NCBI GenBank assembly: GCA_022113835.1
Contig: JAILWY010000018.1
Span: forward strand, 16,453,501 to 16,517,500
Reading direction: 5' to 3'
Length of the DNA: 64,000 nucleotides
Source of the DNA: Atopsyche davidsoni
Taxonomy: Eukaryota; Arthropoda; Insecta; Trichoptera; Hydrobiosidae
Shown: positions 7,811 through 51,277 of the stretch, in pieces
Layout of the letters: each line of letters begins with the position of its first letter
Position numbering within the stretch: the first letter of the stretch is position 1
The notes under the pieces: generated by a model
Database searches by the model: none
Told to the model about the DNA's origin: nothing
The model's input: only the letters and a program-made list of their open reading frames with translations
Made by a program: the position numbers and the translations under genes

Positions 7811-8118
7811 CTAGTAATGTAGCCCGTCACAAAATGACGAATTTGATGAACGATGCGTCTAAATTCTCGCGGTTAACGACATCTCGCGGCGAAGAAGTGA
7901 ATTATATAATTAAAGTTTAGCTAAAGCATATTTTAAAGTTTATGAATGAAAATATTATCCTATCGTCTTGAAATTCGGCACATAGCTGCGGAAAAATTTA
8001 CTTAACTTATGTGCAAAAAATCAGCGTTGTATCTTTTAAGATATTCTATACAGAACGGAAAAATGAAACATACATACAAACATACAAATAAACACACAAT
8101 GGCTATTATTATAGTAGA
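7811..8118 (-). mobile_element. Non-autonomous Helitron, copy 1 (308 bp)
   Basis: Read on the minus strand it begins TCTACTATAATAATAG at 8118, after an A. It ends with a short hairpin (CGTCA-TTTTG-TGACG), a 10-base spacer and CTAG at 7811, followed by T. A 5' TC, a 3' hairpin about 10 bases before CTRR, and insertion between A and T without target duplication are the hallmarks of Helitrons. The left end and the 7,920-8,115 part match the element at 36,450-37,099, including a long shared block around 7,940-8,060. No coding capacity remains. Confidence 0.8.
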
Positions 8119-8343
8119 TATTTTGAATAAAAATACTTGAGTGATTTTCCACATTTTTGTTTTTATTAGTGACCGGTTTCGCCAACCTTTCACGTTGGCA
8201 TTATCAAACAGAGTCTGAAACATGAAAGGTTGGCGAAACCGGTCACTAATAAAAACAAAAATGTGGAAAATCACTCAAGTATTTTTATTCAAAATATTAA
8301 AATGGAATTCCACCAAGTACTCTCTGTCAAAAATATTGAATTT
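8119..8343. mobile_element. Fold-back element HH-B, copy 1
   Basis: Near-perfect inverted repeat: about 75 bases at 8118-8192 are the reverse complement of 8223-8297, with a 30-base loop. A terminal segment at 8302-8343 matches (reversed) the outer end of the copies at 17.8 kb and 50.8 kb (CAATATTTTTGACAGAGAG). The minus-strand loop and arm contain TTGATAA, T, GCCAAC, a loop, GTTGGC, then GAAACCGGTC, the hammerhead-like order discussed in the findings. It abuts the 5' end of the Helitron. No protein is encoded. Confidence 0.85.
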
Positions 8344-13982: not shown

Positions 13983-16900
13983 GTGAGTGACTTATCCACC
14001 TAAGTAGTAACATTATGTAAATATTGATGCAAGTGTAAATCATCATCATGCGACCATCATCGTGACCAACGGCACGCCATCTAGGTGCATAGATCATTTT
14101 GTTCGCCATCACCTTCGAACTTCACTACGATGGTATTCTTGCAACACGGCAAGCGTGCCTTATACGTAAATATTATTTATATGATTAGGCACATAGAAAA
14201 TGACTAAAGAAATTCTCAGAAAAATATAATCGTGATCTGTGTAAGATTTGAACCCACACCCCCTGGCTTACATGGCCGGTGTACTGACTCTTGTACTAAC
14301 GAATCACATCCATTAATCGAGAATTTTTAACAATCATACTCTACATATGAACCAATGTGCCCAGGCCAACCAATATTTAGTGATTTGCGAGCACTGGACT
14401 TTTTAAACAAAGTAACAAGTGAAGCGATTTTAATCCCATCTGGATATTATTTTTTAAATCTATTAATTTAGCCAAGACGCGCACCATCATATACGTATGT
14501 CTATTTTTTGGATTGAACGTCAATCAGATGCGTATTAATTGAGTTTATTATATTGTTACTAATATGAATTACATGTAATGGGTAATAAAGTTACTGTAGT
14601 TTATAGTGTAATATAATTTTGTGCAAGAACGAAAATATGCGAAAATGTCATTACACATCACTTTTAATTACTTACCAGCAGAACTCACGTCCACCAAACT
14701 CTTAAAATAAATAAAGTGTTAGATTTTCAAATTTTTCCTTACAAATACACATACAATGTATATTATAAATTATCTACGATCAAACATAAGCCGGCATAAA
14801 TCTAGTTAAAATAGCATATAAGTCCACTGTCTAACTTTCAAAAAGCTATCTGAGGAATTAATTATACTACACCAAGTAAAATGTGTCTAATAATAATGTT
14901 TTTTGTTAATAAATTACCAGACTTCATAAATAAAAGTTACAAATTTAATAAAACCGGGGAGTCGTATTTTTAAACGACATTAAAATAAGCATTACACTTA
15001 ACATAATTATTTATGAATTTTAACTCAGTGCGTTTTTTAATTTAAATAAATGGTATTTAAAAAAAAAAAACGAATTTTATTAATTATTTTTTGGTTGAAA
15101 AATTTTCGCACTGTAAAATATACGCGGGCGTTTAATCTGAAATTCGTAGACTGTTAAAATATAAATATAAATTTGTATTTACATGTCACATAATATATAC
15201 ACGTTATTACTTCTTCTTGTTAAAAAAAAACTCCCACTTAATATGGCGTGACAATATAATAAGCAACGTGAAATGTAAAACGATTTGTAAAGTGGATAGA
15301 CTCTCTTATATTTTTTTACGTTTATTAATTAATTCTTACGTAGTTCGAGCTTTTTGTTTCAAAGTTTTAATGCACTTTGTGAAAATAAGATACCTATTAT
15401 ATGAACCAATTACAGAAATTTTGAATATTTCTTATCATCTGTAGAATATAATAAATTTATATCCTAAAATATATTTTAGCGAGTATAAGTGCTTTTATAG
15501 ACTCGCATGATCTAATTTAATAATTAAGGCCTTACCCTCCGATATAGTTAAATTTAAATGGTGTGAGTGCGGTTCATACAGACAATAAAGTAATAAAGAT
15601 TAAATAACTAAATATTTTTTTTAAATTTTCATTTTTATTTTCACTGTCTTGAATTTGGGAAAAAAGAATTGATTCTTATTATTGATGTGTCACTGCTTTT
15701 TCACTTGGATGGATCGCAAGTCACTGATGTTTATCATTTATATACATCATGTATGTATTCTATATCAGGTTTGTATATCACGTGTGTGAGTTATATTTAA
15801 ATTATTGTTTATATAAATTAAAACATATTATATAATTGAACGATAACGAAATTCATTTACATATTATTAACTGGATTACATTTTGGCGATTAAAATCCAC
15901 GACATGTTATAATAAAAATAAATATATTTACCAAGTTTAATTAAAATTTATTAATGTTAAAATTTTGAAAGCTTCATAAATATGTATCGACGTACTTTTT
16001 CGTTCTTTCGGATAATAAAGATTTTCTAGCACATTTTGTATAGCCGGAGTATACAGCCGTCTTCTATATTTTATTTGTTTGTAGAAATACATGGTAGTAG
16101 TGTAGTGAAAACAATGTATGTAAAGGATATATGGCACTACATTTCTAATGTTATCATCTAAATTCTTGAGTGAGAGGAAGTACTCTACCTCAAATTTATT
16201 AAGGATGCTTATTCAAGACCTTCACAAAGAGATGCTACGTTGGGACCATATAATGCTAAGTGTGAGGCAGTGTACGCATAAAAATATTTTTATTTTATAT
16301 ATACCATACAGTAGACACAAATATGAAATAAATATAATTAGTAATGTATTAAGGTTCTGGGAAAAATAAAGTTATCTTATAACTTTTCACAATAAATATC
16401 TCTATTTCGTTAAAAATACGAATTTCAATTTGTCGTTTGTGTATATGTATAAAAAATGTATTTATCATTATAACTGTTAGCATGTTTAGTAAAAAGTAAT
16501 TTTCAGTTAAAAATATGCTTTTTTTTAATACTATTGTATAGAATAATAATAACATTTTAAAGAGAAAAGTGTATAAAAGTGCTTTTAGGGGGAGCGTGGA
16601 GGTTCTATAATCGCATTGAAGGTTGCCTAATTTTTGGGTGTTTTTTTAGGTACATTCTCTCGTTGGCCCTGGCCGACCTGCTGGTGGTGACGACGAGCCT
16701 CCCCTTCACGTCCACGGTGTACACGGTGGAGTCCTGGCCATGGGGAGAGCCGCTGTGCAGAATATCTGAGAGTATCAAGGATGTGTCAATCGGGGTCTCG
16801 GTGTTCACCCTCACCGCACTTTCCGCTGATAGATTTTTTGCTGTTGTAGATCCCCTCAGAAGATGGCATGCCAACGGTACGATAAAAAAATATATTTCTA

Positions 16901-19900
16901 TTCATCATTTAATTTATAAATAATATATAACAGAATCCATAGATTCATATATATGTTTTTGTTTTTATAAGTACAGAAATTATGACATATAGACAGTTTG
17001 GAAAAAAATTTAATCCATACCTTATTTTATTAAAATAACAATAAGAAACGATAAAACATAAAATCATAAAAATATATAGTAAGCACATGAATGCTTTTAT
17101 TATTTAAACGAAAAAGTTTCTTGTGTATTTTCAAAAGATCTACTAAAATAATATAATTTAAAAAAACAAGAGAAAAACGTATTTCTATTGATATAACACT
17201 TATTTTATGTTCAAGTTGAAAAATATGTTTTTAAGGTCAAAAAATAATTTATATTAATGTCATTTATAATTTATAAAGCAATAAACGAGCCCTGTAAATT
17301 TCTATAAATATCAAAATTTTATTACATAATTCAGTCCACCTTTAAATATTTATGAAAGACAGGAAAGAAAGAGAGGCAAAAACAACCTTTTCACTCATAT
17401 GTTATCATTTTTAGCATTATATTATTATGTGTAACATCAAAGTTAGTCTTGATGTGTATTATACGGTATTTATATGGGTATTAAAGTATATACCTGTCAT
17501 ACTAATCTCCCTTTTAAAATTAGCTTGAAATGTTAAATTTACTGTTGAATTGGTAATTTAATAAAACATATTTAATGTAATAACTTTAAGATTTATTCGG
17601 GTATGAAATAAGCATTTTTTTAATAATTCACCCAAATAATAAAAAAAAAATAGTTATCGATTCACGTAAAAATCGCAAAAAATATTCCCGGAACATCTCA
17701 TCGTTTTACGTGGGATTAGACTAATACTGTATAATATTTTCGTGTTTTCCAAACTGCTTTCTATTAAATTTTGTCGATGAGATTTTTTCTCATCATTTTG
17801 ATTATATGCTATCCAGAAATTCAATATTTTTGACAGAGAGTACTTGGTGGAATTTCATTTCAATATTTTTGAATAAAATACTTGAGTGATTTTCATATTT
17901 TTTAGTAAAATACATGAGTGATTTTCCACATGTTCGTTTTTATTTGTGACCGGTTTCGCCAACCTTTCACGTTGGCATTATCAAATTTCATTCGCATTTA
18001 TCATTTGCAAATTTTGCATTTTCACTCTGTTTGATAATGCCAACGTGAAAGGTTGGCGAAACCAGTTACAAATAAAAACGAACATGTGGAAAATCACTCA
18101 AGTATTTTACTCAAAAATATGAAAATCACTCAAGTATTTTATTAAAAAAATTATATAATATTTTTGAATCGATAGCATATCGATTGTGATATGCTATCCC
18201 GTATATCACAATCGATTATTACAAATTGTAATGACTCAACGTAGCTGCAGTTGCCCGTGGCACTACTTGCTCAGTAGGGCACGTGTCTCTGACGAGCCAG
18301 CCTGTTTGCAGGGGGAGGAAGTCGCGCCACGTGGGTGACGCTGGCGGCCGTGTGCTGCACGTGGGGGCTGGCAGTGCTGTGTGCTATCCCTGCAGCAGCC
18401 GGGTCTTACGTCAGAGTGTTCGAGGTCAACCCTTCTACAAAGGTATACGCAACCAAATAACGATTACTTAACCTGGGCGCTAGAGTTTGAATTAAAGGGG
18501 TAGGATTTTTACCTCTGTATGTATCGATATTGTAAAAGGTTTCCAAATAAATTATACTCAATAAAGTAGTTGTACATTAGCCCATATTCAATTTAATAAA
18601 ACGTGGAACTCCAACAAACCCAGACGTAATAAAATACTGTTAGCATAAACTTTATTTAATGATCCTATCTAATAGCACAGTTAAGTTAATCTTAAACCAA
18701 TAAAATATTATCAACGAAAATGAAAGCTTCAAAAATAAATTTAAATTAACCACTGACTTTCTATTTACATTGAATTTTCTTTTATTTGATGTTGAAATAA
18801 TTTATAAATAATGATTTAATCATATTATGTATAAATCTGATAAAAGCCTTAGCTCAAAACGTCTTTGAAGTAAATTTAATCCTTTCTATTGTGTTATATA
18901 TGTTAAATATTAAGTTTATTATACTTGATTTAACTGGCCGTTAGCATAATTCAAAAATGAATTGTGTATATTAACCTAAATACCTTTATTGTAAAAAACT
19001 AATAATAAAATATGGTGTTCTGCATTTTAACCATCTTATATTTTTCATCCAAGTTTATGACAGTGATAGGTATCATATGCATGCTACTCACTTTGGAGAT
19101 GAAAAAAATAATATATGATGGTGATATTATTTTTAACGTATGTTTTGAGTCTCAGTTTCGACGGGGTTATCGCTGGCATAAATAATAAATTACTCGTGTT
19201 TTTGTGAAAAGTTTCCTATTTCAGAAAATTCTTCACAAACATTACTATAAATCATTATTGTACCCAAATGCAATCGGAATATTTGATTTTCATCTCTCAC
19301 AGAACTTCATATAAATACGTCTTGATTGTTGGTTATTAGTCGTCACACGTTTGTTTGGGGTAGTTTATTGATTAATTTCCCCTGAGGATCACCACGTCCA
19401 AGTATTATAGAAATGTGTCGACAACTGGTGTGCAGCTAATATTAACTATATTGATTGTAAAATATAGCTGTTAATCATTACAAAACCGTGAGTTGAACAA
19501 TTTTTAAAATGAAAAACAATACAAATATGTATGATTTGTTATGAGTAATTTTGAAAGCGAGCTTTCGACCCAAACAGCGAAAGTGCTCACTACTAAAAAT
19601 TATTTTTGTATTTTATTTAAAATCTATTTTTTTAAAATTTTATTTGGGTATGTATACAAAGCACATAATTTTTATTTTTAGTTTGAGGCGTGCTATCCCT
19701 TCCCAGTGCACTGGGGGGCCGATTACGCCCGAACTATAGTCATGGGACGGTTTCTCATATACTATGCCGTGCCCTTGACGATCATCGCAGTGTTCTACGC
19801 CCTGATGGCGCGGTACCTCGTGCTCAGCGTGCGCAACGTGCCCGGGGAAATGCAATTTGCACGACGACAAGTAGGTCTTAAATTAATTATTAAATTATAA

Positions 19901-31614: not shown

Positions 31615-32985
31615 TTATTTTCTAAAAACGAATTTCTCAGAAAACTCTTTGCAAATGATCATAACTAGGCAAGTCATGCCAAGAAGTTTGATCGTGTTTG
31701 AGTACGATGAACTATAAGAAAGTGCTGAATTGTTTGTGTCATTGCAACACTGGGTGGATATTTCCATAACCTTCGGGAAGTAATTATTCCAGAACTCGAA
31801 CGACTTGTAATTTATATTTCCCGGACCGCTCATATTAAAGCTTCTGTCTATAATGAGAAAAGCGGGCTCTTCAGGTTTGAAGGCTTCCCAGGTAATATAC
31901 ACCCCCGAATTGGTGGGGTTGGAATACATGGCAAAGTTAGCCCACATTCTCATGATTATATCCGATATCCGCTTGTCCGAAGAGTCCCATTGGCTGAACT
32001 CGGCAGGAGAAGCCAAATACGGCAGACCCAAGACAAAAACCAAATCGTAATTGTGAGCCACTCCCACCCAACTCGGAATATCCACATTTACAGCTGGTGA
32101 CAAAGGTTTTAAATCAAATCTGTAGGCGTACGTGGGAGCGTGCATACTCATGTGCTGTGCGAGCATGTAAGTCGGAGCTCCGTAATTCTTTTCAACGTAA
32201 AACTTTAAAAATAAATCACGAAGCAACGTATCATTATTTTCAGGGGGAATGGGATCAAAGAAGAACGACACGGTATCAAAAATATGGTGATGATTTGTGA
32301 AACAAGATTCATTTGTGCTCTCTATGGCAATCTCTGATTGTACGATATCGTTAATCATATCGCTGTACTCCATCTTGGTGATGCCGGAATTTTCGCTTTC
32401 ACTTTCCTTATTGAGAAACAGAGCATCTTCCATGTCAGTGAATCCTATTAAAATTGGCACTTTTTCAAATTGTCCTCTCTCAATCAACTTGGCGGGGTAG
32501 TCCGGGATAAAAGCATTGCTGGAATTACTCAAGCCGAAGTCGATGATAGGTCCCCACTCCGTCAGTGGCTCGCCTTGCTCGACCATAATTTGCGAGTTGA
32601 CATTTCGAAGGCAAGAAATGAGGGCGTTCGTTGGCGTCCTGAAGCAGCCGAACGCCGAAGCCACTCGGTCCACGGTTCTGATCTCTTTCTTCGCCGGCTT
32701 GACGGCATTGGGTGCGATGATGCTGCCGCTCATGGCGATTATCTTCTGAAAAGTTTTAACAGACCAATCCCCCGACGTGAGGTGCAGGCCGGCGCTGATG
32801 GCTCCAGAGCCCTGCCCGAGGATGCACACGTTGTCCTGATTTCCTCCGAAAGCTTTCGCGTTGTTTCTGATCCACTCCAGAGCTACGGCTTGATCCATCA
32901 ATCCGAAATTTCCCGGAGCCTCTCCGTCGATGGTTGTGAAGAAACCAAAAATATTAAGTCGGTAAGCAAACGTCACCACGATAAC
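31615..32985 (-). CDS. Esterase-like protein coding exon 3 (C-terminal two thirds)
   Basis: Acceptor TTTTCAG precedes 32985; the exon starts VIVVTFAYRLN and runs 456 codons to a TAA at 31615-31617. It contains GQGSGA in place of the nucleophile elbow, PILIGFTDMED, GVAHNYDLVFVLG and the typical PTNSG...W region near the end. It closes with a Cys-Cys pair, a Ser/Tyr-rich linker, the hydrophobic IKLLGMTCLVMIIC and a charged tip. Confidence 0.95.
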   Translation of the reverse strand, partial: VIVVTFAYRLNIFGFFTTIDGEAPGNFGLMDQAVALEWIRNNAKAFGGNQDNVCILGQGSGAISAGLHLTSGDWSVKTFQKIIAMSGSIIAPNAVKPAKKEIRTVDRVASAFGCFRTPTNALISCLRNVNSQIMVEQGEPLTEWGPIIDFGLSNSSNAFIPDYPAKLIERGQFEKVPILIGFTDMEDALFLNKESESENSGITKMEYSDMINDIVQSEIAIESTNESCFTNHHHIFDTVSFFFDPIPPENNDTLLRDLFLKFYVEKNYGAPTYMLAQHMSMHAPTYAYRFDLKPLSPAVNVDIPSWVGVAHNYDLVFVLGLPYLASPAEFSQWDSSDKRISDIIMRMWANFAMYSNPTNSGVYITWEAFKPEEPAFLIIDRSFNMSGPGNINYKSFEFWNNYFPKVMEISTQCCNDTNNSALSYSSSYSNTIKLLGMTCLVMIICKEFSEKFVFRK

Positions 32986-35900
32986 CTGAAAACCACAAAA
33001 GAAAATGAATCATACAGGGGGCAGGCGTGAGGCCATGCAGTGCAGAGCGCTGCCCTACTTTTTTCGCTTATCTGATCCAAGGGGCACATTACGGCCTAAG
33101 GGTCGGTTGTGAGTGGTCATTGGCTATTTCCTAGTAAGGAAAAAAACTGATTACGTAGGTGTGTGTGGACGCCGGCACTCTCGGCGGGCTGCAATATGGT
33201 CGATAGGCAGGTGAGGCTCCATGCACGGCCACACAGTGCAACAAACCAAATACAAACGACAATACAATTCAGTTTGAACTTTTATCAATTAACGTGCAGA
33301 AATTAAAATAATTTTTAAAGTATTTTTAAATTTAATATTTCCAACCCATATAAATTGTAAATTGTTGTATTTTATTAAAGCCACATTACTAGCGTGTCAT
33401 AGATATCCACAGCCTTTTAAAATGCGACACTAAATTATAAATTTTGTTGTTTGTCGAGTTTAAAGAAATTGCATGCAATATAGCGATTACTAGTTCCAAA
33501 TAATTTGAATAAAATTTCATGAGGTCACTTAAATTATTCTTTGTGAATTTTGTGTTATTTAGAAAATACGAAAGTAAGTACCGACCTATTATAATTCGAA
33601 TTAATTAAAAACAAAAATTCCTTTAGATCAGGTGGGTTATAAATAAACGTTATGAACCTTTTGCTTGAAGACGAGTTGAAACGGGTTTATGTCGTAAGGG
33701 GTTCCTCTCATAAAGTCTCCGGGGTGTATCCAGACCATGATGGCGTACCCCCCAGGAGGAGCGGGACCTGAAAATAAACAAAGAAAAAGGTTGGATTTAT
33801 TTTCAATAAAGTGCACTTCCATATCAACACCGTCTCCAAATAACTTTAGAATATATCGAGTCCAGTCATGTCCAAATAATAAAGTATTATGTTTAACAAT
33901 TTATTGTCACGTTTTACATAATATATAAAAGTATTTTAATATAAATGAAGAGTATAAGAAAATGTTGTCCGCTTTTCATCAAATTTAATTAAGTTCGACG
34001 AAATTTTGGTTGACCACAGATTATATGTAATTTAATAGATTTATATAAATCCATTAAAATCGTGTACCTTTTAAAACTTTGTTTGTGAAATTATTTCGAT
34101 TATTATGGTAATTACTTCTGTTTTATTATAATAAAATGGTGAAACGTATATAACACAACGTATATGTAACCATTCATTTGACATTATTATTTTAGGTCAT
34201 GAAAACATATTTTAACATCATCTGGTTAGCATGAGACGTCTTTTGTCCTTGCCATGTAAACTTCAAGATAATAAAACCTTTGTGTGGGACAGAAATAAAC
34301 TCAATATTCAGAGTCTTTTCATTTTAAAATTAACCCAATGGATATATTTCTACTTCGTGCATCATTTTACAAAAGGCGTGCTGGTTACATAAATAAATAT
34401 TTATTATTGTATTGTTGTATGTTCCTTTCTTTTAAAGTAACAATTTCATGTAAGAAATAATACGAGTTTGAATTTATTGAAAAGAACTGGGCTAACTACA
34501 TCTTAAGTAGAATAAATAACTTGTTTCCTATATAATTTGAAAAATATAGAGTGTATATAGACATGTATGAAAATTTAATATTTACGTTATCATATATTTT
34601 GTTGAATGAACCAGAAAATGAAGAATGCTGATGGCAAGTCTGCAGTGCTACAGTTAATTTAAAAACACCGCAAGACTATTTAGAACTTTAAATTATCAAT
34701 GAAATTATGAAAAATAATTATGATCAATGTCTTCGAGATGTAAAAATGGCGTTACATGCTACGCACTCCCAGGGCTGCATATTAATTCAGCGTATTTACT
34801 CTTCAGTAAATTACCATAATTACAGGAGATGTTTCGTTTTCGACAACCTGTCTCTCGTTCAAACTGGTTAAAATACGCTAGCGAAAAAGATATCCAATAG
34901 TAAATGAGAACTACATAAAAAATCAAAAGCATATGAATACCCAGGTCAATTAATATTGACGTATTTGACTGACATTGACCTGGGTACGTTGTTTCATATG
35001 TAGAAGAAGATTGTTAAAAATTCTCGCTAAATGGAAGTGGCTCGCTAGTATAGTTGGCAATGCACCGGCCATGTAAGCCGTGGGGATGCGGGTTTGAATC
35101 CCACGCAAGTCACGATGATATTTTTCTGAGAGTTTCTATAATCGTTTCCATGTATAAAAAAATGTACTTAATACAAATAAAACCTGTATAGGTAAAATCG
35201 CACTTACTGTGACGGTCTTCACAAAAACCAAATTTGTATATGTGAATAATGTAAATATATCTACCACAAATTTTTATATGAATTTTTACATTTAACTTTA
35301 GCATGTTCATAAATATATTATTTTTTTCATTCTTTGTATTTTGAACCTTCAATCGCTTACAAGTGTTGAATAAATAAATCTGAATGAAACAAAAACACGG
35401 TTTCAGTAATAGACGGGACTTTAAATATATGTTTAATATAATATTTGTTACAGGTCTTCAATGTTAACCATACAATACATACTTCAATAAAAAAAGCAAC
35501 ATAATAAAAAAACAATTTGAAAGCATTACAAAAATATAGGTCAGAAACCAAATGACTTCAAAACAATGTTTTCACAAAATTGACGTTACTAATGTGCGTG
35601 TAATTGAAGAAATGACTGAATTTTTAGGTTTCGCTTCATAGGAATTTGATAATTGGCACCAAGAAACACTTGAAACTAAGTTGAGTAACCATTAGACATG
35701 ATGAATAAAACGCAATAATATGATTGACCGGAGAATTCAGTTCAAATGGAGCCCATAAATTGTAAAGCCACCTATACACATTGCGACACAGCCGACAACC
35801 GAACGGTGATTAGCCAACGGGGTGCTCTTATTTCTATTCGTATTATTTTTGTTTTGCCTATATCAACATCACAATAAACTTATCGTCAAGTTATCGTTTG

Positions 35901-38900: not shown

Positions 38901-41900
38901 GTGTGTCCTTTACTAGCTTTTCAGAGACATTTGCCTGACCCAAATTCACTCACGTCGTAAATAAAGGTCAAACCCACATTCGCAGCGAAAAATCTGGGCG
39001 AGAATGAAGATAAGTATTGTCAGACGAGAAATCATTAGACCAAAAGTCTGCAAGACACGCGATGTTTCATTTCTCCAAACAGCGGGCCATTGTTTGATGT
39101 TTGTTCACTTTTGGACACGCTTGTCTCGTCTCGATTTAATAAAATTAATTAAAAATTTCGTACATTTTAACCCGAGACGAGTATATATTTCGATCAGAAA
39201 AATTAAGTTACATTCGCGTAAACAACGCAAAAATGTTAATTACTCAATATTAAGTCGTCTGTTCCAATATTAATGCTTCCTTCAAAAACTAGAACACAGA
39301 ATATTAAGATTGGCACTCTTAATTGAGTTGTAATCAATCTCCTGGGATAGTAAAAGCTTTTTAGGAAAATTTACGGCTTTCAGTATCTATTTCTGTGAAA
39401 GACCTATGAAGTATATTGAAAAAAAAACCGTGATGTAATTTCTAAATATAAACAGTATTAGCAAGCTAATTTCAATGATTTTCTAAAAATGAAAAAAACA
39501 TGAAATATAAAACAATAGTTTTGAATTATTTAATTTGTCAAGCTTTGATAATATCACGCTTATTTATTATTGATAATTTTATTACTAGATATTTAAAGGT
39601 TTTATCGTAAAATAGTTTTTATGAAATGCATTTTATTTCATGTATTCAAGTTAAAAAAAAACTTGCGCATAAATAAAATTACTAGTTATGTGTTTTATAA
39701 AAAAAGTTTGAAAAGTATGTATTATATATTTTTTCCGCTTCATACTTTTGAATGTATGCAACTAGTTAGAATAATTCATAAGTTTCAAAGAAATATATCT
39801 GATTTATTAAATTTTTGAAAAATTATTTGTAATCGTTTTATTTAAATATATTTTCTTTAAAAGTTAGCTAAGCCGTTGAGACCGCCGACTTAAAATGAAT
39901 CTCCGTTTCGACGAGGTTTATATTGGAAACAGCAAACCAAAAGAAATGTTTCATTAAATAACTATTTTTTTATTAAGCTATGAAATACTTAAAAATATAA
40001 AAAATACTTTAAAAATGCACTTTATGTAGTTTATTAGATTTTATAGAATTTTGTGAATATTTTACCTGTAAAATTGTAATCCCATATTTTTTAAAATAAT
40101 TTATCTTATACATTCGATTAGTTACTTTCTAATTTTTTTACCATCTTTAAGTAAGGATACGTACGTTATTTTATTCACGTTTGGAAACGTGATATTAATA
40201 CATGTTTAGCTTTATGTTTCGAGTAACATAAAAATCCCATTCAATTAAGGTTTAGTACTTCTGAGTCTGAATGTGTGATTCAGCGCCATTACTCTTTTTC
40301 ACCAAATCATTAATATTCACAAAATATAAAATCGCCAAGAATTATTTCATGTAATATTTTCCATAGCCATATATTACAGTCGATGATATATTGAAGCTTA
40401 AACGAGTAGAGACCGTTCTATTAGTCGCATAACATACGTCACATTATCCAAGCCTTTAAAAGTTTCTTGTTTACCTCTACGTGATATGAAAGTTCTGTCG
40501 CACACGTGTAAATACTTACATCTATCCCCAAAAATAATATAGACGTGTAAAATCTAAATATACTGAACGATATTTTTTTTGATATTTTAACCTTTATTGT
40601 TATAATAATTATCAAGGTTTTATTTAGTCGTAAAGTATTAGAAATCACAAATAAATTACGAATTAAAAACCATTTAGACATGCTGGCCGTATGCTGTTAG
40701 GATTTTTTTTTAAATTATCTGGCTTAAATTAAATATTATAATATATGTTTATTTTATGTTTTGTTTTATTTATATATAATTAACAATTTGTAGTTTCAGG
40801 TGCCTCTCCTCAGAGAAGGTTAGCGTCCATTTCACTGAGATACTCATGCTGAGCCAGTGTTCATGGTTTTCTAAGAAAAATAGTGTAGTGGGCCCTCGGG
40901 TCTTTCTGAACTGCAGTTTTATATTGGAAAGAAAAACATCCGTATTGCTGCTGCTCGATAGCATTATTATATAATCCTTTCCTAACAAAGCTCTAGCGTT
41001 TAGGTCTGATACTCCTTCTGCAGGAAGCTACAAAAATAACAGCAGGAGCCCTCCACCTCGATAAGGATAAGGTACTTCCACAGGGTACAGAATGGCAGCC
41101 ATGCACAAGCAACAGAACGGGGAGAGCGAGAAGGTCCTTTCAAAACAATCAATTTCACAAGCTTTCCTGTAAAAAAATTCAATATGTCAATGATATAATT
41201 TATATATTATAGATTTTTTGTGAAGACCATCTCACAGGTATTACGATTTTGCCTATACAGGTTTTATTAATTGATAATGATTAAGTACATTTTTTCAAAT
41301 ATTGAAAATTTATTAAAGAAAAATATCATCGTGATTTGTGTGGGATTCGAACCCACATCCCCAAGCTTACATGGCCGGTGCATTACCAATTATTCCAACG
41401 AATCACTATAACTTGATAAGAATTTGCCAATCATATCCTATAAATGAAACAACGTACTTATTATGCCAATCAAATGTGGGTTCGAATCCCACAAAAATCA
41501 CGATGATATTTTTCTGAGAGTTTCTTTAATAATTTTTAAATATTTGAAGAAATGTACTTGATCATTATCGATATGTTTTATCTTTTCAAAGCAATGAATT
41601 ACTTAAACTAAGCAAATATGCAAATACTACATTTGTAACCTGTGGTGATCAATTACATATTTATATCTATGTTATGGATTAGTCAATCAGATGCGTATTT
41701 ATTACCCATTACGGGCTTATTATATTTACTAATATGATTAGGCACATTAGTTCATATATAGAAGATGATTTAAAGAAACTCTCAGAAAAATATGATCGTG
41801 ATTTGTGTGGGATTTGAACCCACATCCCCTGGCTTACATGGCCGGTGTATGTAGGTTCATATGTAGAGTATGATTGTTAAAAATTTTCGATAAATGGAAG

Positions 41901-44900
41901 TGATTCGTTAGTACAAAGGTTCGTACACCGGCCATGTAAGCCAGGGGATGTGGGTTCAAATCCCACACAAATCACGATCATATTTTTCTGAGAGTTTCTT
42001 TAAATCATCTTCTATTTATATACATATTAGCAATTTCATATTATTAGTGAAAAACGACGAAAACTTCAGAAGGCTTTGAGATTTTGTAAATATTTTTGTT
42101 TGTAAATTTATACAATTTTAATTGGAAAATCCTTGATGAAGAACGCGCCTGCATTAATTAGAATCTCGGAGGAGCCGCGGGGGTCCCAGCCTGGAGGCAG
42201 CCGAGCACGAGCTGTCATTCAGGGGTTGATCGAGTGCGATTGCACCCGCCCTTCAGGAGGGAGTATTCCCCTGTAATTGATCGCCGGGCTAAGACGCGCG
42301 CCCGTCGCAGCCGCGCGGGGCGAGCGTCCCCGGCAATGCCAACAAATGAATGGCACCGGTCGATACCTCGGATTTATATTATAATGCCCCCCGGCACGCG
42401 ATCTGCAGCCGCGGCATCCTGCCCAAACTGTGACTCACGGAGCCCGACGGGAAATATCACTGCCTCGGTAGTCGGTCTGCGTACAGCCGTGTTTGTCTGA
42501 ACTTCATAGATTTTATCAATAGATTTCTTATCATTGTAACCATTTTTAGTTATTACATACAGTTTTCGTACAGTGATTGCTTTCTTTTAGGGGAGAATTT
42601 CTACTAATGTATTTTCCAACGAGAATATCTTTTCAAATGTTGAAAATTGATTAAAGAAACTCTCATCGTGATTTGTGTGGGATTTGAACCCACACCCCCA
42701 GGCTAACATGACCAGTGTACTGATTCTTGTACCCTTATCATACTCTTCATATGAACCAATGTGCCCAGGTCAAATTATATTAGTAAATAATATAAACTTG
42801 TAACAGGTAATAAATACGCATTTGATTGACGTTCAATCCAAAAATAGACATAATAAATGTTAAGATTAGTACGTTGTTTCATTTATAGGATATGATTGTT
42901 AAAAAGTCTTGCTTAGTACTAGTGATTTGTTGGTATAATTGGTAATGCACCGGCCATGTAAGCTTGGGTTCAAATCCCATTTTTCTGAGAATTTCTTTAA
43001 ATCATCTTCTATGTGTGAACTAATGTGCCTAATTATATTAATAAATAACATTTATTCTCAAATATAAATAAAGCAGGTTAAACGTTATTATAGTATGAAA
43101 AGCTTTATTTATTACGGTTTACAACCCTTTCTTCTTCAATAAACTAGGGAAACTATTTTATTTAGTGAATCTAATCATTAAAAAATTTAAAAAAGGCTTA
43201 TCCAACACACACACTTACTTTTACAAAAAACCTATTAAAGTAATAAAAAATACGATTGAACTGTCCCATTTATCCGTTATATTTATATTAACATTTAAAT
43301 TGTAAACATTTTTATCCTAATACGTACCTTTATTTAAATACGGCGTATTTCTAACGGTTAGTTAATTAATTAATTTTAATACTCTCCTTTTATATTGCAG
43401 CTAAAATGCACCACGAAAATAATACACGAAAGTTCACTATGATGGACGATTTGTAGATATTTCGAGTTTGCATTATAAAAATTACACCTTCCAGCAAGTG
43501 CAAACAAATTTGCGAAAACATGGAAATATATTGCATGGAAATTACTTCTTAAAGGCAAGTTTACTGTGCCCTCATTGCTTATGCAGCGGACGGAGATGTT
43601 AGCATAATCAGCGACAAAAAAGCTAATTGTTTTGGAACATTCTCCATGCACGAGAACTGCCGTTGGAAATGCCGACTATGCAATTTACCATAAAACTGAA
43701 TTAAAGCTAGAAACGATGTTAATTATACTTATTGCTTCATTAAATCAGCATGTTTTTTTAAAAATATCTTCATGTACTCAACATACTATCAGAGTTAAGT
43801 GCGATTTTTTTTGCAGTAATTACTCTTTGAATGTCAAACTATTCTCATATGCAATAAACAAGGTGAAAAATAAGCATATGAACGTATAAATAAGTTATCG
43901 GGCATTTATATGATAACTAAAAAAATTATAAATTAACGATGATAAATTGTAACTGATACAGAATGTAAAAAGGTTTAATAGTAATTTTTTTAAAGTTATT
44001 TATTAAATTTTTAACATCTCTTCTTAAATGATTTCTTTTATATAATAATTTTTTTTCTTTAAATATTGAATTATTGTATTGATCATTATAATAAATTTGT
44101 TATTGTTATTGCGGCTTATTTGATCAATATATTTTCATGCTTTATATTCAGTTATCAAATATTTATTTTTTAATTATATTTTTACTCAGTTTTACTTTAG
44201 TACGTCTCTTTGTCTATTTTCTCATAACACATACAGGTAAATAAGTGTTTGGCTAAGCCAGAGACCTCCTGGTTAATTTTTCTCGGGGTGAGTGTGACTC
44301 ACCTCCCCTTCGTGCCCGCGATAACCTTCTCCATTGATTTCAATCACACGAGCGTTTCATTGCATGTGCTTAATATGTCAAAGCTGAAAGCTGAAACATC
44401 TGAAGGACAATATCGGGTGAACGACTGAGTGCATTAGCGGCTTGTTTGGGGCAATGTCCTGAAGAATGCTTACGATACACGAAGGAAATAAAAGTAACCC
44501 GGACGTACTAATACATAACTAAACGGGAAGATTCATATCTTAATCATCCGATGTCAACAACAACAAAAAAATTTACTAGTTACAGATTTTTGGTTATAAA
44601 TAATTATTTTATAAATCTGGATGAATATAGATCCAGACAAACGATAAAGCACAATTAAACTATTAATATCGATTGTTAAATTATAACTAAACTTATGATT
44701 AAGAAAATTAGGATTAGTAAATCCACAAGATTATCTTTTGCAAACAGTTTAAATGAAAGTGTACGATACGAACAAATTTATTTTTCAACGATAGCAAATA
44801 AAACCTTTACTTCACTATTATTCAAAACCTTAATTTATATTTAATTAAAAGCAATGTGAATTAAAAATATTTTGAAATAAACGATAAATTAAGGAAGGTA

Positions 44901-47900: not shown

Positions 47901-50485
47901 ATCAATAAACATCTAATCGTGATTTTATATTTGCTACAATAACTTAAAAATTACTCGATTTTTAAAATTTTATAACTTAAATAAACATGTTATAATATTA
48001 TTCGTATTAATCTGTGTTTTTATCAAAGTATTTGTTATGGAGCACAAAGGAAAATGTATATGACGTACCCTCTTATTTTTTTAACGGAAACCTAGTTTTC
48101 CTCTGCATACTTTTCAGGAATCATGACACGCGACTAGAAAGCCAGGAAGAAATTATCAATAATAACTGCACCCTCATAAATATTTATCAAACTTGGGAAG
48201 TTCATAAAAGTGATACATGCATTTCCCAAGATTTTTTTATAGATATAAAACCAACGAACCGTACTTATTTATACAATACTTTGGCTAATTCTTGTTTATT
48301 TTTTTAATTTTAAGTTTAACCATATACCATTTAGTATTATAGAAACGATTTATTACGGTTCTACGAATACGGCGTTACGTTCATGATTCAGGGTTAATAT
48401 TTCGTACATGTCATGCGTTATAACTCAAGAACATAGAAGTTATTACTAAAACATAGAAAATATGATTAGTATATTTTATAATAATTTTATGTATACTACA
48501 TAAACTGAGGGAAGAATCTATAAACGACATTATTTTATGAAAGAAGGAGGCCGCAAATGAAATAACAGTTAAACTATCTGTTCAAGATAATAGGAGGCAA
48601 TTGAAGTAGTATCCGGGTTTTTTTTTTGCAAAACTGGGATTTGCCATACTGTATGTAAGGTAATAACAAAAAACCATTTCTTCAAAGAGATTTAATTTTT
48701 TTTTATTCTAATTTTATGGAGACATTTTAAATTTAAATAGAATTGAAAAAAATATCCCTATGGATTCGTACCCGCAACAAAAGCAAACTCTCCGTTCGAG
48801 CTGCTGAAATACGTGAAAAAGCTTAATTTTGCTACCTTAGATTTTAATTAAATAAAAAAATGTTCGGCATAGCCATAGTAATTAATTTATATTATAAAAT
48901 TCGGTACGGTTGGCCCAGACTAGGTTTAAAGACAGTTTATGCCCGAATTCCGACCAAGAGACAGATATAACTACACTTATTTTCTACCCCAAAATATCGT
49001 TTTCATATTACAGTAACGCTAAATCTTGCCTACACAGGCAATGGGGTGCTCAGCAATAAAAATATAAACAGATGGATATTTGATTTCTTTCGTTATTTTG
49101 TGGGGAGTGCTTGTATTTTTTTTAAAACTATATGAAGGTACATACGTTTCATTATTGGAAAGGTGTGTTTCTTCAAATATATTCATGTGTCTTGTTGAGG
49201 GACAAGGCATTTGATTGGTGAATATCCATTTTTTTATAAATGATAAGGGTAACTTTGTATTCTTTCTTCACTTTGAGTTTATTTAAGTTTTTGCATGACT
49301 AGTTCAGTGTTTGTTCTGCATCTGATGATGACCCGGTGTATAGGGTCGAAACTAGTCATGCAAAAACTATAATAAACTCAAAGTGAAGAAAGAATACAAA
49401 GTTACCCTAATATTTTAATGTATTTTTTATGTTAGGTTACAAGTACTTCTACAATTTAAAAGGTATCTGCGCGTCAAGACTTATTAGAACATTATGAGTG
49501 AAAATAAGAATGCAAGGATTATTCGGTTTGAGAAATGAATTGAAGTTATATAGATAATGATTGAGTACATTTTTTCAAATATTGAAAATTGATAAAAGAA
49601 ACTCTTAGAAAAATATCACCGTGATTTGTGTGGGATTTGAAACCCACATTCCCAAGCTTACGTGGCCGGTGCATTACCAATTATACCAACGAATCACTGG
49701 TACTAAGCGAGAATTTTTAACAATCATATCCTATAAATCAGGGGTGTCTCAATTTGCAGAGGGCCGTATATTAAATTTAGAATGTACTGAATTATTATAA
49801 CATTTTATTTATTTCATTATATACGGTTGTTTAAAATCATATCAAAGTTATAACAGAGGGTAATTATTTTGAGTGTGCGCATTTTAAAATTTCCGTATAG
49901 GAATCGAGTGAAGTCTAAAAGCTCTCAAAAACATTGCGATCGCGGGCCGTATCTTTGACACCCCTGCTATAAATGAAATGCTATGTTGTTTTTATTTTTA
50001 CCCCACTGAAGGTTTACAGTCTCAGTGTTTGCGATCGAGTTTTGCGTATCCGGTTAGTTACCGTCAGGGACGTAGACGTTGAGGAAGAGGCAGTCCTCGT
50101 CGTAGGTGAGCTCCAGGTCGTCGGGCTGCTGCGCCTTGAGGAGCGCGGCGAAGAGCTCGTCGTGCTTGGGCATGGCGCGGCGGCCCGGGGCGGCCTGCAG
50201 GCACGAGGGCGCGGGCAGCGTGGCGTTGCGCGAGCCCTCCCACTGCGGCAGCGGAGACACCTGCGGCGGCGCGAAGCGGAGCGCGCCCAGAGGAGGCTGC
50301 GCGTACGGCACGCCCAGGTACGCGGCGATGCGCTGCGTGCGCTGCAGCGTCTTGTACGCGCCCGACAGCATCCCCTGCCCCGCCACCGTCACCACGGGGG
50401 GCTCCCGCGCCGCCAGCGCCAGCGCCAGCGACCACGCCGCGACCACCACCCTCGCCAGCACCCTCGCCAGCACCCTCGCCAGCAT
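31615..50485 (-). CDS. Catalytically dead carboxylesterase-like protein (whole gene, 3 coding exons)
   Basis: Exons 50485-50062, 33767-33658 and 32985-31615 join in phase to 1,905 nt, giving 634 residues and a stop. The protein has an N-terminal signal peptide (residues 1 to about 26), then an alpha/beta-hydrolase type B esterase domain: GVPYAQPPLGALRF, the EDCLFLNVYVP signature, MVWIHPGDF, VIVVTFAYRLNIFGFF and GNFGLMDQ. The nucleophile elbow, normally GESAG, reads GQGSG, so the serine position is Gly237. The oxyanion-hole HGGG reads HPGD. Triad-like Glu364 (TDMED) and His489 (GVAHNYDL) remain. A short hydrophobic segment lies near the C terminus, followed by a basic tip. Loss of the serine is shared with neuroligin/neurotactin-type adhesion proteins. 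The HPGDF version also recalls an uncharacterised insect esterase clade (clade I), but that assignment is from memory. A binding or adhesion role is inferred, not shown. Confidence 0.88.
33658..33767 (-). CDS. Esterase-like protein coding exon 2
   Basis: Acceptor TTTTCAG precedes 33767 on the minus strand. It reads PAPPGGYAIMVWIHPGDF and ends VFKQK at 33658 before a weak donor, GTTCAT. HPGD replaces the HGGG oxyanion-hole motif. Phase fits exon 1 (split Gly codon) and exon 3 (phase 0). Confidence 0.88.
34983..35228 (+). mobile_element. tRNA-derived SINE copy 3
   Basis: A nearly complete plus-strand copy: head block, A-box-like TAGTATAGTTGGCAATGC, anticodon arm ACCGGCCATGTAAGCCG, B-box-bearing T arm with GGTTTGAATCC, a 3' acceptor strand AAGTCAC pairing with the 5' GTGGCT, then the TATTTTTCTGAGAG tail. 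Its far tail (AAAACCTGTATAGGTAAAAT, then GGTCTTCACAAAAA) matches the copy at 41.2 kb and differs from the tail at 8.6 kb, so two tail subfamilies exist. Confidence 0.85.
36450..37099 (-). mobile_element. Helitron copy 2 (650 bp) with a remnant open frame
   Basis: Minus strand starts TCTATAATAATAATATCC at 37099 after an A and ends with the hairpin CGTCA-TTCTG-TGACG, a short spacer and CTAG at 36450 before T. It shares both ends and an internal block with the element at 7.8-8.1 kb. It is longer because it keeps an ATG frame beginning at 36740 (MPPKKIAPSTHSKRNPKRIA). That basic start resembles the N terminus of Helitron replicase-helicase proteins, but the frame decays soon after. Confidence 0.8.
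36600..36740 (-). pseudogene. Possible remnant of a Helitron replication protein N terminus
   Basis: About 45 basic, Lys/Ser-rich codons from ATG 36740 (MPPKKIAPST, then NPKRIAQLNV), lying inside the Helitron. Beyond that the reading frame becomes random AT-rich sequence, so only a truncated start is left. The assignment rests on location and on a general resemblance to basic N termini of these proteins. Confidence 0.35.
41215..41575. mobile_element. Inverted pair of SINE copies (copy 4)
   Basis: A minus-strand copy (41,215-41,465), complete with tRNA-like arms and the CTGTATAGG-type tail, is followed directly by a plus-strand partial copy starting inside the T arm (GTGGGTTCGAATCCCACA). The two share the TATTTTTCTGAGAGTTTC tail block in opposite orientation and could fold on each other. 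Confidence 0.8.
41690..42020. mobile_element. Inverted pair of SINE copies (copy 5), large hairpin
   Basis: A left minus-strand arm (41,745-41,850) and right plus-strand arm (41,920-42,015) are near-perfect reverse complements over about 95 bases, including T arm, anticodon arm and TTTTTCTGAGAGTTTC. The loop holds the SINE head block and the 5' acceptor strand. The left flank is the reversed far tail (GTCAATCAGATGCGTATTTA). Confidence 0.85.
42150..42500. other. GC-rich island in the esterase intron
   Basis: About 350 bases of GC- and CpG-rich sequence with AT-rich DNA on both sides. It has an 88-codon open frame that starts with a non-ATG codon and has biased Arg/Ala/Ser composition typical of translated GC-rich non-coding DNA, with no splice sites supporting an exon. 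It is best read as candidate regulatory DNA or an unrecognised non-coding exon. Confidence 0.35.
42637..42855 (-). mobile_element. SINE copy 6 with rearranged tail
   Basis: Minus-strand tRNA-like region (TTTGAACCCACACCC, then GACCAGTGTACTGATTCTTG) flanked on the right by a plus-oriented tail block ending CAATCCAAAAATAGACAT. The head was lost by internal deletion. Confidence 0.75.
42868..43048 (+). mobile_element. SINE copy 7 with T-arm deletion
   Basis: Head block, GTGATTTGTTGGTATAATTG A-box region and the GGCCATGTAAGCTTGGG anticodon arm are present. The T arm is shortened (GGTTCAAATCCCA joined straight to TTTTTCTGAGAATTTC). The acceptor 3' strand is missing. Confidence 0.75.
49246..49408. 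mobile_element. Fold-back element HH-A, copy 1
   Basis: Inverted repeat of about 58 bases (49246-49304 against 49350-49408) with a 45-base centre. The arms begin AGGGTAACTTTGTATTC and include CTTCACTTTGAGTTTAT, shared with the copy at 50.8-51.1 kb. The centre carries CTGATGA, stem II and GAAAC. Confidence 0.85.
49317..49362 (+). ncRNA. Hammerhead ribozyme-like motif in HH-A copy 1
   Basis: In order: helix I strand TGCAT (49317-49321), core CTGATGA (49322-49328), one extra T, stem II GACCC/GGGTC (49330-49334 with 49343-49347), GAAAC (49348-49352), TA, the cleavage triplet GTC (49355-49357), then ATGCA (49358-49362), which pairs perfectly with TGCAT. This is the layout of a type I hammerhead with a minimal helix III (ACTAGT, self-complementary), which in known cases works best as a dimer. 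The extra T before stem II is non-canonical, so activity is uncertain. Confidence 0.55.
49553..49738 (-). mobile_element. tRNA-derived SINE copy 8, interrupted by a MITE
   Basis: Minus-strand copy with tail block (TTCAAATATTGAAAATTGAT), T arm, anticodon arm GGCCGGTGCATTACC, acceptor GAATCACT and head block ACAATCATATCCTATAAAT. The head continues (CTATAAATGAAA) after the inserted element at 49,739-49,966. Confidence 0.85.
49739..49966. mobile_element. hAT-like MITE with 8-bp target duplication
   Basis: 228 bp with perfect 10-base terminal inverted repeats, CAGGGGTGTC and GACACCCCTG, flanked by the 8-bp direct repeat CTATAAAT (49731-49738 and 49967-49974). Subterminal GGGCCGTAT words occur near both ends in opposite sense. 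Eight-base duplications and CAGGGGTG-type ends fit hAT transposons. It has no coding capacity, and it lies inside SINE copy 8, so it is younger than the SINE. Confidence 0.9.
50062..50485 (-). CDS. Esterase-like protein coding exon 1
   Basis: The first ATG in frame is at 50485; upstream in-frame sequence lacks ATG, so this start is chosen. It encodes the signal peptide (MLARVLARVL, then VVVAAWSLALALA), the esterase N-terminal region and ends in VYVPDG at donor G|GTAACT. The exon is extremely GC-rich against AT-rich surroundings. The N-terminal Leu-Ala-Arg-Val repeat comes from a 12-bp tandem repeat (CCCTCGCCAGCA) at about 50,445-50,484 that may vary in length. Confidence 0.88.
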
Positions 50486-50790
50486 CGCGCGCTTCCGAAC
50501 TGAAGCAAAGTTTGAAATGTAATAAAGCTCGGGTCGGCCCGCTGCGTGCGGCCGTGGCTGGGGCGCTCGCCGTACTGAGCGCCCGCCGCCCAGACCCCGC
50601 GCCCTCGCGCCCTCGCGCCCTCGCTCCTCCACGCCCCCGCGCCCCCGCCGCGGAGAAACCTCACGAAACGTCCGACAGCTTCTCTTCACTGTAAACCCAT
50701 TTCAGAACGCTTAAATAGTATGCGATCTTGATTGATATAAAAAGTGACGTTGTATGTATGTCTGTCTTCACTTTGAGTTTATTAGAATTA

Positions 50791-50952
50791 AGAAATTCAA
50801 TATTTTTGACAGAGAGTACTATTTTAATATTTTTTAATAAAATACTTGAGTGATTTTACACATTTTCGTTTTTATTAGTGACCGGTTTCGCCAACCTTTT
50901 ACTAATAAAAACGAAAATGTGGAAAATCACTCAAGTATTTTATTCAAAAATA
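50791..50952. mobile_element. Fold-back element HH-B, copy 3, nested in HH-A copy 2
   Basis: 162 bp carrying the HH-B terminal segment (CAATATTTTTGACAGAGAG) and a hairpin of the ACTTGAGTGATTTT and TTTTTATTAGTGACCGGTTT arms. The loop is reduced to a few bases, so the TTGATAA half of the core is deleted while GAAACCGGTC survives. The 13-base sequence TTTATTAGAATTA is present on both sides (50778-50790 and 50953-50965) as an apparent target duplication. Confidence 0.8.
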
Positions 50953-50967
50953 TTTATTAGAATTATT

Positions 50968-51014
50968 TGCATAACTAGTTTCAACCCTATACTCCGGGTC
51001 ATCATCAGATGCAT
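50968..51014 (-). ncRNA. Hammerhead ribozyme-like motif in HH-A copy 2 (minus strand)
   Basis: Minus strand: ATGCAT, CTGATGA (51008-51002), one extra T, stem II GACCC/GGGTT, GAAAC (50982-50978), TA, GTT in place of GTC, then ATGCA pairing with TGCAT. U at the cleavage position is allowed by the hammerhead UH rule but is a poorer substrate. The opposite-strand copy at about 51,033-51,077 has GAT at the cleavage triplet and looks dead. Confidence 0.45.
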
Positions 51015-51277
51015 GACTAAACTGTTTAGTCGTACATCTGATGATGACCCGGTGTATAGGGTTGAAACTAGATATGCAAATAATTCTAATAAACTCAAAG
51101 CGAAGACAAATATACAATGTCATTTTTTATCATTACAATAATGGATCTTCACCAATGAAATGCCTTGTCCCTCAACATGATTAGATATTTATTGTCATTT
51201 ATTATCAAATCTCAATTATCGAAGTCTATTACAATTTTTGATAGCATAAGAGAAATAACACAATTATAAACATACTT

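Follow-up and report, generated by a model that had tools for sequence, protein, structure and literature searches.

The hairpin described here lies in a 64,000-nt stretch of the genome of Atopsyche davidsoni (Trichoptera; contig JAILWY010000018.1, positions 16,453,501 to 16,517,500, forward strand), referred to below as the window, and it is a short product of a Penelope-like retrotransposon (PLE) with a small hammerhead motif. The mobile unit occupies 49190-49408 and consists of two inverted pseudo-LTRs (LTR, long terminal repeat) placed head to head, one arm of which carries a PLE "tail". We hold it very likely that the unit originated as a PLE-made pseudo-LTR palindrome and that its core is the PLE's small type I hammerhead motif, a judgement limited to origin and motif identity. 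Whether the donor PLEs are catalytic is a separate matter; we regard it as probable. A sequence-only reading of the window had placed a hammerhead core within a short non-coding fold-back element at 49246..49408. The hairpin, its core and its nature as a mobile palindrome are borne out; the span was drawn too short, omitting the left tail, and the palindrome does not represent a separate fold-back family, being a PLE product made of pseudo-LTRs alone.

From left to right, the unit begins with the tail (49190-49229), which reads MDIHQSNALSLNK on the - strand and corresponds to the first codons of the PLE open reading frame (ORF); the ORF of a whole PLE found elsewhere in the genome, L059, begins MDLHHANALSLNN. 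The tailed inverted pseudo-LTR arm follows (49230-49304, - strand). It has no hammerhead core of its own, the motif being present solely on the strand opposite the tail. The centre, or leader 5' of the core, lies at 49305-49316 (+), and the pseudo-LTR arm without a tail at 49350-49408 (+). Both ends of the element are abutted by imperfect 14-bp direct repeats, picked by eye and matching at 11 of 14 positions: AATATATTCATGTG on the left (49176-49189) and AATATTTTAATGTA on the right (49409-49422). Target-site duplications are thus imperfect in the window copy; for the family they are shown below.

The hammerhead pieces listed by the sequence-only reading are present base for base in the claimed order, all on the + strand. 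Helix I is formed by TGCAT (49317-49321) and ATGCA (49358-49362), with all five of its claimed pairs found. Core box 1, CTGATGA (49322-49328), is followed by an extra U (T in the DNA, 49329) and by stem II (49330-49347), in which GACCC (49330-49334) and GGGTC (49343-49347) enclose an 8-nt loop. The core position numbers (C3, G8, A9 and so on) are those which we take to apply. Core box 2 is GAA (G12 A13 A14, 49348-49350), within a GAA-AC stretch (49348-49352) that continues through TA (49353-49354) into the GTC triplet (49355-49357). Helix III, ACTAGT (49351-49356), is self-complementary and could form 2 bp with a 2-nt loop in a monomer, or up to 6 bp in a dimer. By analogy, cleavage is predicted between C17 (49357) and 49358. 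The window core thus has CUGANGA, GAAA and an NUH triplet in the order of a type I hammerhead. The combination CTGATGA..GAAAC occurs three times in the window, against 0.15 expected.

This motif is found in both pseudo-LTRs of PLEs that have open frames in this genome (L059, L060 and L061), which upholds the suggestion that the hammerhead is of the small type I kind known from PLEs. A search of the genome (370.7 Mb) for GIY-YIG returned 24 places, three of them in uninterrupted frames of 826 amino acids (aa). The protein of L059 is 810 aa long from the first Met and is recognized by Pfam as containing RVT_1 (E 1.2e-10) and GIY-YIG (E 3.6e-5). Its direct pseudo-LTRs (2833-3300 and 5757-6224) are 468 bp long, 98% alike and have a core each, which gives this element two motifs in tandem in one transcript. 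L059 has an extra inverted partial pseudo-LTR at 6243-6321, while the window copy has the inverted pair only. In donor-type PLEs the long ORF begins about 100 nt 3' of the core start. Those relatives of the PLE protein that have a name come from insects.

The family of the window element, family A, is abundant. The pattern CTGATGATGN{6,20}GAAACNNGT has 2488 matches in the genome, compared with 2 when it is reversed. When the 163-nt span was used as the query, 2085 candidates yielded 40 scored places, one of which is the window copy itself; the set that was aligned comprises the 39 other places, one partial match (L048) and two window copies. The core is visible in every aligned copy but L048, in some with point changes. 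Outer arms are shared among the copies, and the inner second arm and centre vary from copy to copy. A tail was found in 33 of the 41 copies examined. It is the start of the PLE ORF (the window copy has MDIHQSNALSLNK, other copies MDLHQSNALSLNK) and reads as such in families A and B, the latter being introduced below. Among the tailed copies, matched with at most four errors, the core lies on the tail strand only in 11, on the other strand only in 19 and on both in 3. Flank duplications of at least 10 bp (10-19 bp) accompany 18 of the 31 tailed copies with both ends found, as compared with 1.4% of 930 mismatched flank pairs. Several partner arms (inner arms of L009-L047) keep the leader without the core, as if it had been skipped between the ATGCA repeats of helix I. 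No match was obtained in viral contigs, searched with the exact pattern, or in phage records.

Two further PLE families share the motif. A genome search with the L059 protein scored 56 places out of 463 candidates, including families of 839 aa (B) and 845 aa (C) at 42-43% identity, in both of which Pfam reports a reverse transcriptase. Family B has TTGATAATGCCAACGTGAAAGGTTGGCGAAACCGGTC in its pseudo-LTRs (as in L096) and three further window elements belong to it; family C has TTGAAGATGCCGTGTTCGGCGAAAGAGCTCTC at the equivalent place. Exact patterns of B and C occur in 5580 and 626 genome copies, against 3 and 0 when reversed. Core pair 3-8 is C-G in family A, U-A in B and U-G in C, so that B and C deviate from the hammerhead consensus at position 3, and B also at position 8. 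Families A and B have C-G at the helix III pair 15.2-16.2, where C has G-C, and helix III is self-complementary in each: ACUAGU in A, ACCGGU in B and AGAGCUCU in C. The extra T between the core and stem II, which the first reading had flagged as unusual and as its main caveat, recurs after A9, just before stem II, in each of the three families and hence is not a defect of the window copy. It makes A9-U-G10.1 read AUG, and this core AUG opens only a few codons. A weak look-alike, GCCAAGCATGTTGGCGAAACCGGTA, was seen in L095 (- strand, near 5164), perhaps the remnant of yet another PLE family.

Pairing was examined in 12 hand-chosen representatives (nine of family A, two of B and one of C). The hammerhead pairing holds in 89.7% of cells, and sliding one side lowers this to 20.8-43.1%. 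Covariation scores 0.298 versus 0.120 after shuffling, and 14 cells have a two-sided change versus 5.3 in the shuffled sets; neither value was reached in any of 500 shuffles. Two-sided changes in stem II are A-U/C-G at one pair, C-G/A-U/G-C at another and C-G/A-U/U-A at a third. The shuffles ignore relatedness and few families were sampled, so few independent events lie behind the covariation. The cleavage triplet is GUC, GUA or GUU, all of the NUH type, in 60 of 67 rows. In the Rfam comparison, hammerhead type I (RF00163) is the top family for the 58-nt core, at 13.5 bits.

A number of results weigh against these conclusions. At the tolerance used, 8 of the 41 copies have no tail, and 13 of the 31 lack a duplication of 10 bp. 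GIY-YIG is not reported by Pfam in families B and C at E 0.001. With the Rfam model, proposed in the sequence-only reading as a check, the score lies far below the gathering cut-off of 34 bits, and stretches wider than the bare core give no Rfam hammerhead match. As drawn, the Rfam type I consensus closes a loop with three helix III pairs, and A9 is not followed by an extra base. Compensatory changes, suggested there as a further check, are clear between PLE families in stem II and in pair 3-8 and occur in one helix III pair; helix I has a single two-sided change in 60 cells and is paired in 78.3%. Of 500 shuffles, 27 reached the number of pairs with a two-sided change (6 of 13) and 87 the number of pair types.

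Folding adds to these objections. For the 163-nt span the computed folding energy is -98.9 kcal/mol (z -17.7), a value equalled by none of 200 shuffles, while the ribozyme fold of the window copy reaches -73.7 kcal/mol, a cost of about 25 kcal/mol. The hairpin holds both helix I strands and the cleavage site. Because it is far more stable than the ribozyme fold, cleavage in the window copy is unlikely. The tandem arrangement of motifs is not found there either, the copy being inverted with a single core. In the best two-strand folds, all 6 pairs of the shared helix III form in family B and 6 of 8 in family C, against 0 of 6 for both family-A leaders folded. Of six one-strand folds (these two leaders at 55, 75 and 150 nt each), two contain both helix I and helix II; at 150 nt neither leader forms both. 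Two-strand folding, considered as support for dimers, was dropped as general support, since it works for B and C and for neither family-A leader. It must be noted that the folding programs used omit the non-standard pairs of the hammerhead core.

Taken as a whole, the observations are best explained by a scheme in which a PLE makes a short non-coding insertion composed of two pseudo-LTRs joined head to head, one of them ending in the tail, between target duplications. The hammerhead would probably operate as a pair, two motifs in one tandem PLE transcript sharing helix III and cleaving after NUH. This mode of action is proposed because helix III (ACUAGU) is too short on its own but is self-complementary. 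According to a review that treats double hammerheads (PMC6466107), these need a palindromic stem III loop and, in the case of eukaryotes, must stand in tandem. The long hairpin of the window copy would outcompete the ribozyme fold, and, judging from the computed energies, this copy is probably an inert passenger.

The most serious rival shares the PLE origin of the scheme just described and differs from it in how the motif would work: the motif is hammerhead-derived and no longer catalytic, being kept for another role, such as a hairpin for the PLE protein, a promoter, or a translation element with the AUG at A9-U-G. We consider this unlikely, yet deserving of weight. In the available part of a report on an Anolis PLE (PMC11167929), the hammerhead is dispensable for insertion in vitro and RNA-seq ends at the cleavage site are absent. 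The 5' ends of the present copies lie just upstream of the motif, C3 is changed in families B and C, and the family-A folds, with one strand or two, are mostly without the ribozyme. The same Anolis report states that the single changes C3G or G8C abolish cleavage and that the hammerhead itself cut only with protein present. Since C3 is changed in them and such changes abolish cleavage in the Anolis PLE, families B and C may be inactive as ribozymes. A role unrelated to catalysis accords less well with the conservation of GAAA, with the NUH triplets of those 60 rows, with the self-complementarity of helix III and with the rarity of GUG, seen in only 23 copies genome-wide (a figure without a matching non-G count).

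The ends of the arms bear on whether cleavage takes place before reverse transcription. Cleaved RNA was entertained as the insertion template: ends of partner arms fall at the cleavage site in 4 of 40 cases, at +5 in 4 and at +9 in 6, with a spread from -11 to +23, and the idea was set aside. The partner arms do not pile up at the cleavage site and so give no sign of cleavage happening, which is a further point against catalysis. The measure is weak, because it stops at the first poor stretch and because ATGCA/ATGCAT makes position 0 ambiguous. In a set of 63 arms with an intact core, 37 end 13-15 nt 5' of the core, 9 end within 9 nt of it and 4 continue into a full pseudo-LTR; arms cut at the cleavage site are absent from this set because it requires an intact core. 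Among the matches listed (the first hundred or so per family search), all 42 motif pairs within 60 nt of one another diverge. Here the median gap is 30.5 nt in family A (n=18), 18 nt in B (n=7) and 15 nt in C (n=17), the gaps in C ranging from 3 to 36 without a clear peak.

The arm ends and the diverging pairs would suit the joining of two complementary DNAs (cDNAs) at the RNA 5' end, after priming on both cut strands; both target strands are cut and extended in the Anolis PLE, as described in the same available part of PMC11167929. An extension of this idea is that the short palindromes are complete PLE integration products. Both cut target strands would prime reverse transcription on PLE RNA. 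Synthesis of the two cDNAs would stop at a fixed 5' end, only a few to 15 nt before the hammerhead, where they would be joined. We offer this tentatively, giving it somewhat less than an even chance; the self-priming model set out in PMC3846280, as far as its available text goes, is an alternative for the origin of the palindromes. If complete integration products are what they are, each palindrome records the RNA start and whether its hammerhead had cut. The hammerhead would then be located at the transcript's extreme 5' end, and most templates would have been uncut. Furthermore, the family with 5580 copies, in which C3-G8 is swapped for U-A, would constitute a natural test of that pair.

These data leave little room for two other origins. 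A retrozyme, in which a non-autonomous RNA would be circularized through hammerheads of its own and then copied by the proteins of PLEs, is very improbable. The mini-element is small and non-coding, PLE machinery is present in the same genome, and animal retrozymes of about 170-400 nt are described in the available part of PMC7229834; against this, tandem repeats with a hammerhead in each were not found, the 42 listed close pairs are inverted to the last, and the arm ends do not cluster at the cleavage site. The notion of a Harbinger-like DNA-transposon MITE (miniature inverted-repeat transposable element) with a TAA duplication and a chance likeness to a hammerhead, prompted by the near-perfect inverted arms and by TAA/TAA, which seems to flank the arms in the window copy, is rejected as having next to no chance, given a tail that is confined to one end and matches the beginning of the PLE ORF, 18 of 31 copies with duplications of 10-19 bp, centres that vary between copies, and sequence held in common with PLEs that have open frames.

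Other PLE material in the window repeats this picture. A second family-A element (50740-51180, + strand, left end approximate) is a head-to-head palindrome with cores at 50978-51008 (-) and 51038-51068 (+) and a tail at 51141-51180. It is interrupted by a nested family-B mini-element (50790-50953, - strand), which is flanked by a perfect 11-bp duplication, TTATTAGAATT (50779-50789 and 50954-50964); six other family-A copies show the uninterrupted site. A family-B mini-element with the core TTGATAATG..GAAACCGGTC occupies 8118-8297 (- strand), and a family-B palindrome with one core per strand is found at 17866-18149. The remaining neighbours are of other kinds. Rfam reports tRNA-like heads, probably of short interspersed nuclear elements, at 41902-41974 (+), 41332-41404 (-), 14233-14305 (-), 49622-49695 (-) and 35039-35112 (+); two of them fall inside an inverted-repeat cluster at 41270-43047. 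Carboxylesterase exons are located at 31615-32976 (-) and 50057-50689 (-), the former having its best-scoring named relatives in Lepidoptera (moths, butterflies) at 50-56% and unnamed relatives at up to 72%.

Small hammerheads in PLE pseudo-LTRs, dispersed in thousands of copies and acting as dimers, are already in print according to the available parts of PMC7761336 and PMC6155905. The find is therefore real but mostly expected, since PLEs are known to carry such hammerheads, and literature searches, judged by their listings, showed nothing closer than the papers cited here. The cores described here resemble those of Cervera and de la Pena (2014) and of Lunse, Weinberg and Breaker (2017), both taken from the available parts of PMC7761336, PMC6155905 and PMC6466107, in that a type I core lies in pseudo-LTRs and is dispersed in thousands of copies, with helix III nearly lacking and its loop palindromic for action as dimers. 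They differ in the host and in the exact sequences, and families B and C change core pair 3-8. The swap at pair 3-8, the extra U in all three families and mini-palindromes as whole insertions may be new details.

The Poseidon PLE of Anolis (PAc), in the available part of PMC11167929, is alike in having its hammerhead at the junction of pseudo-LTR and ORF, with C3 and G8 before the start codon, and a tail that derives from an internal start of reverse transcription. The PAc ORF starts at stem II, whereas the long ORF here begins about 100 nt further 3'. The Anolis layout, with the ORF running from stem II, would fit the arrangement of extra U and AUG seen here when the two are set side by side by description. 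The Adineta vaga Penelope (available part of PMC3846280) similarly has a pseudo-LTR in head-to-head inverted orientation and palindromes at the inverted junctions, together with a 31-bp tail on one pseudo-LTR and duplications of 8-10 bp. Unlike in that element, many copies here consist of pseudo-LTR sequence alone and their centres vary. The monarch butterfly penelope-1_dPle (available part of PMC8848866) is an intact PLE that also combines reverse transcriptase and GIY-YIG and has thousands of copies, few of them above 1 kb. There the short copies are discussed as truncated or deleted, whereas many of ours carry their own duplications.

Short copies with duplications of their own look like complete insertions. 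Should the mini-palindromes prove to be primary products, it would be wrong to count every short PLE copy as decayed. In the newt hammerhead, a palindromic loop caps helix III. The newt and axolotl satellite hammerheads (available part of PMC7229834) share with the present motif a very weak helix III and cleave better as dimers; they reside in tandem repeats, whereas inverted pseudo-LTRs are the setting here. The role of the widespread PLE hammerheads is called unknown in the available part of a review (PMC7761336). The A. davidsoni genome has three PLE families in which one motif takes three sequence forms, along with thousands of insertions whose ends can be mapped and PLEs with open frames, material that makes it testable whether the ribozyme is active ahead of reverse transcription, and also whether pair 3-8 is exchangeable in nature.

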